64,000 bases of DNA from Geothrix terrae (lineage in GTDB: Bacteria; Acidobacteriota; Holophagae; Holophagales; Holophagaceae). The stretch is from NCBI RefSeq assembly GCF_022808775.1, contig NZ_JAKZLA010000003.1, positions 186,001 through 250,000 of the forward strand. The letters are read 5' to 3'. The translations under genes were made by a program, and so were the position numbers. Shown here piece after piece: positions 1,661 through 4,846 of the stretch; positions within the stretch are counted from its first letter, which is position 1, and every line of letters starts with the position of its first letter. Under the pieces are notes generated by a model, which did no database searches, was not told the DNA's origin, and saw only the letters and a program-made list of their open reading frames with translations.

Positions 1661-2989
1661 TCAGGCCCTCCGCATCATCTGCGCGATGAGAAACGCCATC
1701 TCCAGGCTCTGGCTGCGGTTGAGGCGGGGGTCGCAGCCGCTCTTGTAGGCGCGCTCCAGGTCGGCCTCGTCGAGGCCCTCCACGCCGCCGGTGCATTCGG
1801 TGACGGGCTCGCCGGTGAGCTCGAAGTGGACGGCGCGGAGCCGCGAGCCGTGGGCGCGGTGCACGTCGGCCACCTCCTGCAGCTCCTGGAGGATGTCGCC
1901 GAAGGCCCGGGTCTTGAGCCCCCCCTTGGTCGTCCGCCCGTTGCCGTGCATGGGGTCGCAGCTCCACAGCACGGGATGGCCTTCGGCCCTCGCAGCCTCG
2001 ATGAGCGCCGGGAGGACGCGCCCGGCCTTGCCGGCGCCGAAGCGGGTGATGAGGGTGAGGCGGCCCGGCTGGCGCTCCGGATCCAGCTTGGACAGCACCT
2101 GTCGCAGCTGCTCCGGCGTCATGGAGGCGCCGACCTTCAGGCCGATGGGGTTGGCCAGGCCGCGGATGTACTCCAGGTGGGCGCCGTCCAGCTGGCGGGT
2201 GCGCTCGCCGATCCAGAGGAAGTGCGCGCCCAGGTTGTAGTGGGCCTGCTTCTCCGGGACCCAGCGGGTCAGGGCCGTCTCGAAGGGCAGGTGCAGGGCC
2301 TCGTGGCTGGTGAACAGCTCGCCGGTGCGCAGGTGCTCGGGGAGGCCGCCCAGGCACTTCACGAAGTCCAGGGAGGCCCGCACCTGCTCCAGCGTCTCCA
2401 GGTAGTGGCCCGCGTCCTCGCGGCTCCAGGGCAGGTCCCAGTGCTCGGGGTTGTGCAGGTCCGCGAAGCCGCCATCCACCAGGGCCCGCAGGTGGTTGAG
2501 GGTGGCGGCGGCGCGGTGGTAGGCCTCCAGCAGGCGCCGGGGGTCGGGCTCGCGCTGGTCCGGATCGAGCCCGTTGATGAGGTCCCCGCGGTAGACAGGC
2601 ACCCGGCGGCCGTCCACCAGCTCCGTGTCCCCGCTGCGGGGCTTGGCGTACTGGCCCGCGATGCGGCCCAGATGCACCACGCCCGTGCGGCCGCCGTGGG
2701 TGATGAGCACGGACATCTGGAGCAGCACGCGCAGCTTGTCCTGGATGAGGGGCCCGCGGCAGTCCGCGAAGGCCTCGGCGCAGTCGCCGCCCTGGAGGAG
2801 GAAGCGCTTCCCTGCGGCGGCCTCGGCGATCAGGCTCCGGAGGTGGTCCACCTCCTCGGCCACCACCAGGGGCGGCAGCTCCCGCAGTTCCGCCAGGGCG
2901 GCATCCACGGCGGCGGCATCGCGGTAGCGCGGCTGCTGGGCCGCGGGCAGGCCGCGCCAGGAATCCGGGGCCCAGGTCATTCCCGTCAT
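1661..2989 (-). CDS. Class II 3-deoxy-7-phosphoheptulonate (DAHP) synthase
   Basis: First enzyme of the shikimate pathway, condensing PEP and erythrose 4-phosphate. The 442-aa protein is of the class II (plant/mycobacterial) type, with LLQGGDCAEAF near residue 70 and the metal/PEP-site motif WSCDPMHGNG. The start chosen is the ATG overlapping the pheA stop as ATGA, giving MTGMTWAPDSW; an ATG three codons later is possible. The frame is open further upstream but that runs through pheA. Translational coupling to pheA places both under the Phe attenuator upstream, so carbon entry is controlled with phenylalanine synthesis. Confidence 0.95.
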   Translation of the reverse strand: MTGMTWAPDSWRGLPAAQQPRYRDAAAVDAALAELRELPPLVVAEEVDHLRSLIAEAAAGKRFLLQGGDCAEAFADCRGPLIQDKLRVLLQMSVLITHGGRTGVVHLGRIAGQYAKPRSGDTELVDGRRVPVYRGDLINGLDPDQREPDPRRLLEAYHRAAATLNHLRALVDGGFADLHNPEHWDLPWSREDAGHYLETLEQVRASLDFVKCLGGLPEHLRTGELFTSHEALHLPFETALTRWVPEKQAHYNLGAHFLWIGERTRQLDGAHLEYIRGLANPIGLKVGASMTPEQLRQVLSKLDPERQPGRLTLITRFGAGKAGRVLPALIEAARAEGHPVLWSCDPMHGNGRTTKGGLKTRAFGDILQELQEVADVHRAHGSRLRAVHFELTGEPVTECTGGVEGLDEADLERAYKSGCDPRLNRSQSLEMAFLIAQMMRRA

Positions 2990-4083
2990 CGCGCCACCTC
3001 CGTGGCCCGCGGGTAGCTGCCCAGCACCTTCAGGGAGGCGCAGGCGCCCCGCAGTTCGGCGAGGGCCTCGGCCATGGAGGGCTCCTCCGCGTGGCCCTCC
3101 ACATCCAGGAAGAAGGCGTACTCCCACAGCTTGCGCCGGGTGGGCCGACTCTGGATGCGGCTGAGGTTGAGGCCCCGCCGGGCCAGGGGTTCCAGCAGGC
3201 GCAGCAGGGCGCCGGGACCGTCCTGGGCCATGGCCAACAGGGTGGTGCGGTCCCGGCCCGTGGGCTCGGCGGACTTGGGCCCCAGCACGAGGAAGCGCGT
3301 GGCGTTGGCGGCCAGGTCCTGGATCTTCGTCTCGGCTACGCGGAGGCCGAAGAGGTCCGCCGCCAGCTCCGAGGCCACGGCAGCGCCCTCGGCGTCCTCC
3401 CGGGCCAGGCGGGCGGCCTCCGAGGTCGAGGGCGCCTCGATGCGGTCCGCCCTGGGCAGGTGCGCCTCCAGCCAGCGGCGGCACTGGCCCAGGGCCTGGG
3501 GGTGGGAGTAGACCCGCCGCACGCCGCCCATGTCCAGGCCGGGGCGCAGCAGCAGGGCCTGGTCCACGGGCAGGAGGATCTCCGCGCAGATGGCCAGGGG
3601 GCTGTCGAGGAAGGCATCGAGCGTGGAATCCACCGCACCCTCGGTGGCGTTCTCCACGGGCACCACGCCGTAGTCGGCCCGCTGGCGCTCCACGGCCTGG
3701 AACACCGCCTGGATGGTGCCCTGGGGCAGGGCCTGGCCGGAGCCGCCGAACTGGTGGCGCGCCGCCAGGTGGGTGAAGGTGCCCTCGGGCCCCAGGAAGG
3801 CCACCCGCAGCGGCTTCTCCAGGCTGAGGCAGGCGCTCATGATCTCCTGGAAGACCGTGCGCACGGCCGGGGCCGGGAAGGGCCCGGCGCTGGCGGCCTC
3901 CAGGCGGGCGAGCACCTCCCGCTCCCGGGCGGGGGCATGGAAGGGGGCCTCCGGCGCGGCGGCGGTCTTGAGGCGGCCCACTTCAGCCGCCAGGGCCGCC
4001 CGGCGGTTCAGCAGGGCCAGCACCTGGTCGTCCACGGCATCGATGGCCTGCCGGAGGCCGGGGAGGGACGGGATCTCGGTCAT
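2986..4083 (-). CDS. pheA: Bifunctional chorismate mutase/prephenate dehydratase (P-protein)
   Basis: Makes phenylpyruvate from chorismate. The 365-aa protein has an AroQ-type chorismate mutase domain (about 1-90; LRQAIDAVDDQVLALLNRRA), a prephenate dehydratase domain (about 92-275; FLGPEGTFTH, VPVENATEGAVDSTLD, catalytic NATRF) and a C-terminal ACT domain (about 280-360; GALLRLLEPLARRGLNLSRI then QSRP in place of the usual ESRP). The ACT domain gives allosteric Phe inhibition. A strong AGGAGG precedes the ATG. It is the first gene after the leader peptide and terminator, and its stop overlaps the DAHP synthase start. Confidence 0.96.
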   Translation of the reverse strand: MTEIPSLPGLRQAIDAVDDQVLALLNRRAALAAEVGRLKTAAAPEAPFHAPAREREVLARLEAASAGPFPAPAVRTVFQEIMSACLSLEKPLRVAFLGPEGTFTHLAARHQFGGSGQALPQGTIQAVFQAVERQRADYGVVPVENATEGAVDSTLDAFLDSPLAICAEILLPVDQALLLRPGLDMGGVRRVYSHPQALGQCRRWLEAHLPRADRIEAPSTSEAARLAREDAEGAAVASELAADLFGLRVAETKIQDLAANATRFLVLGPKSAEPTGRDRTTLLAMAQDGPGALLRLLEPLARRGLNLSRIQSRPTRRKLWEYAFFLDVEGHAEEPSMAEALAELRGACASLKVLGSYPRATEVAR

Positions 4084-4102
4084 GGGGTCCTCCTGAAATG
4101 CG

Positions 4103-4131
4103 AAAACCCCCGAGCCTTGCGGTCTCGGGGG
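4103..4131 (-). terminator. pheA attenuator terminator
   Basis: On the minus strand CCCCCGAG and CTCGGGGG form a perfect 8-bp GC-rich stem with a 9-nt loop, followed by TTTT, about 20 nt before the pheA start. An alternative pairing exists: CTCGGG inside the leader (4178-4183) can pair with CCCGAG of the terminator's 5' arm. This is the antiterminator/terminator arrangement of amino-acid attenuators. Confidence 0.85.
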
Positions 4132-4155
4132 CGATGGTTCGAAGCGGTTCCGGTT

Positions 4156-4221
4156 CTAGACGCCGCCTACCCTCGCACCCGAGGTGCGAAAGCTAAAGAA
4201 GAAGGCGCGGGAGGCGGTCAT
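4156..4221 (-). CDS. pheL: Phe-rich leader peptide of the pheA attenuator
   Basis: A 21-codon ORF starting ATG-ACC-GCC and ending TAG, 25 nt before the terminator stem. Residues 7-11 are FFFSF, encoded TTC TTC TTT AGC TTT, so four of five consecutive codons are Phe. Directly after them a hairpin CGCACC-TCG-GGTGCG (4174-4188) acts as arm 1:2. Ribosome stalling on the Phe codons would cover arm 1 and free arm 2 to pair with the terminator's 5' arm. Function is inferred from this architecture; the ribosome site before the ATG is weak. Confidence 0.82.
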   Translation of the reverse strand: MTASRAFFFSFRTSGARVGGV

Positions 4222-4274
4222 CACGGTCTAGACACCTTGCCGGAAAAGGCCTTGGCCTGCAAGGGAATTCAGGG

Positions 4275-4380
4275 GAAACGCGAAGGGCGCGAATGAAGGC
4301 GCGAAGACCGCGGACAGAAGTTCGGCCCAAGGAGGACACCTTTTCAGCCTTCGCGCTTTTCTTAGCGCCCTTCGCGTTCC
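4275..4380. repeat. Long imperfect palindrome, intergenic
   Basis: The left arm (4275-4306) and the reverse complement of the right arm (about 4347-4380) match over about 32 nt, both built from GCGCGAAGG-like units such as AACGCGAAGGGCGC. It lies between pheA's leader and the downstream end of the hypothetical gene at 4400. It resembles the dispersed REP-like palindromes of many GC-rich genomes and could fold as a large mRNA hairpin. It is a relative in style, not in sequence, of the palindrome at 37356. Confidence 0.7.
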
Positions 4381-4399
4381 GCCTTTGCTATTCCTGGCC

Positions 4400-4846
4400 T
4401 CAGGCCCCGAGGCAGGCCAGGACCTCGGCCAGGCAGGCGGTCCACACCTCGTCGGGGGTCTCGTCCAGGAAGAACTCCACGGCATGGCCGGCGGGCCGGG
4501 CCTCGGGGTGCTGCGACCAGGCTTCGAAGAGGGCGTCCAGGGGGGCGGCGTCCAGGGCGTTGCGGCGGAGCTTGTGGGATTTCCGCGTGCGGTCGGGATC
4601 GGGCCCGCGCAGGCAGACGCCCTCCCGGCGGGTCGCCACGAAGGTGAAGACCTGCACCCACTTGCCGTCCATGAGCTGGTTGAAGTGGAAGAAGGCCCCG
4701 TGGTGGCTGCGGGAATAGTCGAACACCCGGTGCTTCCCCCGCCACTTGGCCGCCCAGAGGGTGAGGATGGCGGCCAGCCGGGCCCGCTCCGAGGCATGCT
4801 TCAGGCAGCTCTGGGCGTAGGGCAGGAATTCGTCGAGCAGGTCCAC
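4400..4846 (-). CDS. Hypothetical protein, 148 aa
   Basis: I do not recognise this family. The start is a GTG with GGAGG seven nt upstream. The protein is soluble-looking and rich in aromatic and basic residues (FDYSRSHHGAFFHFNQLMDGKWVQVF, given here only in part: HHGAFFHFN), with no signal peptide or membrane segment. It ends just before the palindrome at 4275-4380. It is transcribed alone, in the same direction as pheA but separated from it by the attenuator leader. Confidence 0.65.
   Translation of the reverse strand: MDLLDEFLPYAQSCLKHASERARLAAILTLWAAKWRGKHRVFDYSRSHHGAFFHFNQLMDGKWVQVFTFVATRREGVCLRGPDPDRTRKSHKLRRNALDAAPLDALFEAWSQHPEARPAGHAVEFFLDETPDEVWTACLAEVLACLGA

Follow-up and report, generated by a model that had tools for sequence, protein, structure and literature searches.

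A probable phenylalanine attenuator before pheA and a class II DAHP synthase gene in Geothrix, and sister leaders in the same genome

In Escherichia coli, attenuators at pheA (pheL) and pheST sense Phe-tRNA (PMC11802643). A precedent for Phe/Tyr attenuation of a DAHP synthase is aroR-aroF of Corynebacterium glutamicum, where, in the account of Neshat et al. 2014 given by PMC11802643, a leader with Phe-Tyr-Phe codons precedes the DAHP synthase gene and acts through ribosome stalling. Classical attenuators predicted for Actinobacteria from comparative genomics (PMC1262725) and those in the survey by Naville and Gautheret (PMC2965389) have the same architecture as the locus described here and were inferred by the same method. 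Attenuators were also predicted in Acidobacteria in that survey, almost none of them with an associated function (PMC2965389), and amino-acid leader switches have hardly been described before in Acidobacteriota. Since Lopatovskaya et al. 2010 (cited in PMC4833913) may mention Acidobacteria, no claim to a first case in this phylum is made.

The present locus is located on the minus strand at 4103–4221 of a 64 kb window, i.e., the whole stretch of DNA analysed, within the 3.4-Mb genome of a Geothrix species of the Holophagaceae; Geothrix fermentans (DSM 14018, L061) belongs to the same genus. A preliminary description had considered an acidobacterial host only conditionally, and the host is indeed an acidobacterium. 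Like E. coli pheA and pheST, the locus consists of a Phe-rich leader peptide, a 1:2 hairpin, an antiterminator, and a putative GC-rich terminator. However, it belongs to a different phylum and has no Rfam-detectable sequence similarity to the E. coli leaders; its operon includes a class II DAHP synthase, pheS in this genome has no leader, the leader stop codon lies in the inner hairpin of its antiterminator, and the predicted 5′ UTR is very short. Unlike the actinobacterium C. glutamicum, as far as its system is summarized in the above account, Geothrix has a DAHP synthase gene in an operon with pheA and a separate I-alpha enzyme that carries a Phe/Tyr/Trp leader; in other genera, DAHP synthase is fused to PheA. 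From sequence and from analogy with the E. coli systems, we consider the locus, with a probability of about 0.92, to be a classical ribosome-mediated transcription attenuator that would sense charged Phe-tRNA and control both pheA and the DAHP synthase gene that overlaps it.

Leader peptide and alternative RNA folds

The 21-codon ORF with four Phe codons in five that had been noticed before pheA is present (Table 1), with Phe at codons 7, 8, 9, and 11; as in classical attenuators, it is a short leader ORF with a codon cluster for the operon's own amino acid. Among the 1406 short ORFs of the window (11–42 aa, either strand, all common start codons, each nested start taken as a separate ORF), it is the single place with such a run. 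Across the 37 Geothrix loci, Phe is retained at codon 11 in 37, at codons 9 and 7 in 36 each, and at codon 8 in 12. Counted from the stop, Phe11, Phe9, and Phe7 stand at positions −11, −13, and −15, and the variable positions are −14 (Phe in 12 of 37) and −16 (23 of 37). The most conserved Phe codons are thus those nearest the hairpin, and TTT and TTC replace each other at several of them. This pattern is what selection on an aminoacyl-tRNA sensor beside the hairpin would be expected to give.

No clear Shine–Dalgarno site was found at the leader ORF. Most of the 37 Geothrix loci have a promoter pattern, TTG(C/A)nn-17-(C/T)AnnGT, at 12 nt (13 nt in five) before the leader ATG, a position that predicts a 5′ UTR of just ~5 nt for the leader. 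A transcription start downstream of 4221, which would have spoken against the preliminary description, is not indicated, the predicted conserved promoter being upstream of that position. Neither the promoter-like element nor the terminator at 4103–4132 was listed by a strict promoter and terminator consensus scan. Further upstream, an ORF of 148 aa (4400–4846, minus strand) without a Pfam or NCBIfam match precedes the leader in many relatives too. Between this ORF and the leader promoter lies an imperfect palindrome of ~115 nt (4270–4385), which occurs as a single copy in the genome and has a similar stretch at the same place in one relative (L005).

The structural elements that had been reported are likewise present. 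The 1:2 hairpin (4193–4169), reported as standing directly after the Phe codons, in fact has a stem that begins within the Phe cluster, the last Phe codon being inside the 5′ arm. This is the placement needed for a ribosome on the control codons to mask that arm, and such masking is inferred from the size of the ribosome footprint. In addition, CUCGGGUGCGAGGGU (4183–4169) can pair with ACCAUCGCCCCCGAG (4138–4124), which includes the terminator's 5′ arm, at 13 of 15 positions, so that the antiterminator (2:3) and the terminator (3:4) are mutually exclusive. The terminator before pheA reads CCCCCGAGACCGCAAGGCTCGGGGG-TTTT and ends at 4103. Its U-run is short (UUUUCGCAUUU), with four U followed by CGCAUUU, and its stem is strong and conserved. 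The 96-nt stretch with both 1:2 and 3:4 formed has a folding energy of −47.1 kcal/mol (z = −3.05 against dinucleotide shuffles), and the antiterminator fold, calculated on 70 nt after removal of the 5′ arm of hairpin 1:2, has one of −30.9 kcal/mol. In Rfam searches of 3 kb (E ≤ 5) and of 201 nt (E ≤ 10), no leader family matched and the only matches were chance ones; the T-box covariance model gave no match in either stretch.

Table 1. Features of the pheA locus (window positions), Phe leaders of other families, and predicted sister attenuators of the same genome
Feature	Position	Strand	Evidence or remark
Promoter-like element TTGCAG (4262–4257), 17-nt spacer, CAAGGT (4239–4234)	4234..4262	-	12 nt before leader ATG
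Leader peptide ORF, MTASRAFFFSFRTSGARVGGV and stop	4156..4221	-	kept in 37 Geothrix loci, synonymous Phe-codon changes, stop conserved
Control codons Phe7, Phe8, Phe9, Ser10, Phe11 (TTC TTC TTT AGC TTT)	4189..4203	-	conservation count, 37 loci
1:2 hairpin, GCUUUCGCACC-UCG-GGUGCGAGGGU, 11-bp stem	4169..4193	-	-16.6 kcal/mol
Antiterminator 5′ strand (region 2)	4169..4183	-	pairs with 4138–4124; duplex -22.6 kcal/mol
Inner hairpin of antiterminator (AGGCGG...CCGCUU), leader stop UAG in loop	4142..4168	-	folding, pairing counts
Antiterminator 3′ strand (region 3), includes terminator's 5′ arm	4124..4138	-	folding, pairing counts
Predicted intrinsic terminator hairpin (3:4) and TTTT	4103..4132	-	-22.3 kcal/mol, z -4.03 vs dinucleotide shuffles
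Shine–Dalgarno AGGAGG of pheA, outside terminator hairpin	4089..4094	-	sequence
pheA, chorismate mutase - prephenate dehydratase - ACT	2986..4083	-	Pfam CM_2, PDT, ACT; NCBIfam
aroG-type class II DAHP synthase, ATGA overlap with pheA	1661..2989	-	PF01474 E 2e-177; TIGR01358
Phe leader, other family, ...RYFYFSFFSIARG...	L376		
Phe leader, other family, MQHNRSAFRFFSRMSAACLIV	L371		
Phe leader, other family, MTDRFAFPTFAFTADSGSPIDV	L375		
asnB (asparagine synthase B), Asn leader MTFSSLRTNRNFNNPLPRANRAWAGEGLT	C1:473956-474071 (L175:557-672)		control Asn-Arg-Asn-Phe-Asn-Asn (NRNFNN)
aroF-type class I-alpha DAHP synthase, leader MTSRFHRYYWFPRTDRAWHGEGPA	C7:385541-385669 (L195:444-570)		Phe-His-Arg-Tyr-Tyr-Trp-Phe
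trpE, Trp leader ...GAWWWRAGSDGSLCEA (AWWW) and terminator	C1:400672-400820 (L305)		kept in genus members read
thrA-type aspartate kinase/homoserine dehydrogenase, Thr/Ile leader MTTTNGTITHPDPRGA and terminator	C8:283580-283700, minus strand (L198)		

Conservation and gene arrangements

In the family, 77 genomes were searched for pheA, and its upstream region was taken wherever the gene was located. The resulting alignment (A1) comprises 40 loci, 37 from Geothrix and three from genera g5 and g10, and all 40 have a Phe-rich leader, the hairpin, and the terminator. Each comparative check proposed in the preliminary description favours it: the Phe codons are retained in the homologous leaders, and the alternative pairing is too, an antiterminator being predicted in every Geothrix leader folded. 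The simple cut used for this folding does not work in L038 and L043, where the stop codon comes further downstream. Over the 40 sequences, 96.8% of cells are paired in the terminator state and 92.0% in the antiterminator state, compared with at most 58% and 52%, respectively, when the partners were slid. Taken singly, the terminator hairpin has 99% of cells paired and the 1:2 hairpin 94.5%, the latter with three two-sided changes. What is observed directly is the elements and how they are conserved, together with the alternative pairings and the operon.

Compensatory changes in the stems, proposed earlier as a check, do occur: some cells are changed on both sides (3 in the terminator state and 5 in the antiterminator state). 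They are rare, since the stems scarcely vary, and the shuffle control was indecisive for them. In the homologue from genus g10 (L038), antiterminator columns 79/149 are changed on both sides, from C-G to U-A, and the pair in columns 80/148 is broken in 15 of the 40 sequences.

The ATGA coupling of the pheA stop to the DAHP synthase start is real, and adjacency of the two genes is common in the genus. A class II DAHP synthase gene directly follows pheA in 29 of the 37 leader-bearing Geothrix genomes and also in G072 of another genus; in a few others (G020, G046), the contig stops too soon after pheA to judge its presence. In G011 and others, this gene is gone from its place after pheA and the leader is retained; thus, pheA is the constant partner of the leader within the genus. 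Two further DAHP synthases are encoded in the host genome; a Phe/Tyr/Trp leader precedes one of them, and the other, of class II, has no leader before it. Entry into the shikimate pathway therefore does not depend on the predicted Phe switch alone.

Other genera of the family have different arrangements. In g3, g7, and g9, a single protein combines chorismate mutase, prephenate dehydratase, ACT, and class I-beta DAHP synthase domains; it has about 675 residues (L052–L056), and an aminotransferase-like gene follows it. The leaders of these fusion genes have Phe codons followed by Tyr codons in most species, e.g., MTAHSATFTFTPAARRYYYGGGG..., with the Tyr codons within the loop of hairpin 1:2 in several species, and have a different terminator with a complementary region 2. 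In genus g6, pheA has no leader, and a stand-alone class II DAHP synthase gene has one with FFYYFGF or FYYFGF (L176, L180). An architecture rebuilt from unrelated sequence in other genera is stronger evidence than covariation within the genus. Beyond the family, Phe-rich leaders were found at 3 of 24 pheA or prephenate dehydratase loci of other Acidobacteriota, in three families (Table 1), and each of them also has a terminator, to whose 5′ arm a stretch further upstream is complementary. Rejected R1 matches were that in G180, from another family of the phylum, which lacks a codon run of the leader type and resembles an ordinary terminator, and G024:C8, which looks like a tRNA gene and then a hairpin.

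Predicted mechanism and alternative readings

Stalling, termination, and the response to phenylalanine are inferred from the known trp, pheA, and pheST mechanism of E. coli. RNA polymerase would start just upstream of the leader ORF with a ribosome behind it. When Phe-tRNA is ample, the ribosome would pass the Phe codons and reach the stop, hairpin 1:2 would form, and region 3 would be left free for the 3:4 terminator, which would end transcription before pheA. When Phe-tRNA is scarce, the ribosome would stall at Phe9 or Phe11, cover the 5′ arm of hairpin 1:2, and free region 2. Regions 2 and 3 would then pair around the inner hairpin, the terminator would be blocked, and pheA-aroG would be transcribed.

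Among the other readings, the one that survives best is that the leader senses tyrosine besides phenylalanine, or the general aromatic supply, in this species too. Tyr replaces one Phe in some Geothrix leaders, the leaders of other genera contain both Phe and Tyr codons, and Phe, Tyr, and Trp codons occur together in the aroF leader of this genome. However, only Phe codons stand before the hairpin in this leader and in most of the genus, and a broader specificity here is unlikely. A still smaller chance is given to an action on pheA translation, by re-initiation or by masking of the ribosome site, instead of on transcription termination. About 70 nt separate the leader stop from pheA, and a leader ORF near a structural gene has been proposed to favour re-initiation (PMC4833913), but this distance exceeds the 10–16 nt peaks of that study, the pheA Shine–Dalgarno sequence is not part of the hairpin, and all 40 loci have a GC stem with a U-run behind it. 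Least probable of all is an ordinary terminator of the upstream gene (4846–4400) preceded by a Phe-rich ORF by chance: that gene is on the same strand and similar hairpins stand at the ends of many genes, but leader and both alternative structures recur in all 40 loci, even where the upstream sequence differs (L010, L017, L020, L023, L024), a conserved predicted promoter separates gene and leader, and the short ORFs of the window contain no second such Phe run.

Sister attenuators of the genome

Beside the probable Phe attenuator, at least four other predicted attenuators of this genome came to light (Table 1) through a covariance model built on the Phe leader, a search for the terminator pattern, and the reading of 1.18 Mb of its sequence. 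The Asn leader of asnB is also found in many relatives (as NNLNNN or NRNNN), and our literature search found no description of an asparagine leader attenuator. A similar Asn leader precedes an asparagine-synthetase-A-like gene in G053 (L186). The leader of the aroF-type gene, whose pattern F..Y(Y)W recurs in some 14 to 16 Geothrix loci, is a candidate for a three-amino-acid aromatic attenuator. Short ORFs with few Pro codons and then a terminator stand before proB (L185, L187, L188) and proC (L196, L189); as Pro attenuators, they are weak candidates.

Outside the control codons, an alignment of the asnB and aroF attenuators scores 18 SD above shuffles; any similarity of the Phe attenuator to either is weak at most. 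Judged by this alignment, the predicted asnB and aroF attenuators are clearly homologous, with hairpin, antiterminator, and terminator sequence in common and different control codons. The simplest reading that this suggests is duplication of an attenuator followed by exchange of the control codons. We regard it as probable that one attenuator chassis was duplicated in the Holophagaceae and re-specified by control-codon swaps (asnB, aroF), with the Phe, Trp, and Thr leaders forming the rest of a genome-wide set.

The Phe locus places the best-known amino-acid RNA switch, with functions attached, in Acidobacteriota, where it accompanies DAHP synthase in three gene arrangements, namely an overlapping operon, a stand-alone gene, and a fusion. 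The set of sister attenuators is more interesting and more surprising than the Phe attenuator alone. If the one-chassis reading is true, the set would include a leader attenuator specific for Asn and, on the first shikimate enzyme, an aromatic one for three amino acids, and a single chassis with differing control codons would allow the origin of new amino-acid specificities by codon swaps to be tested.
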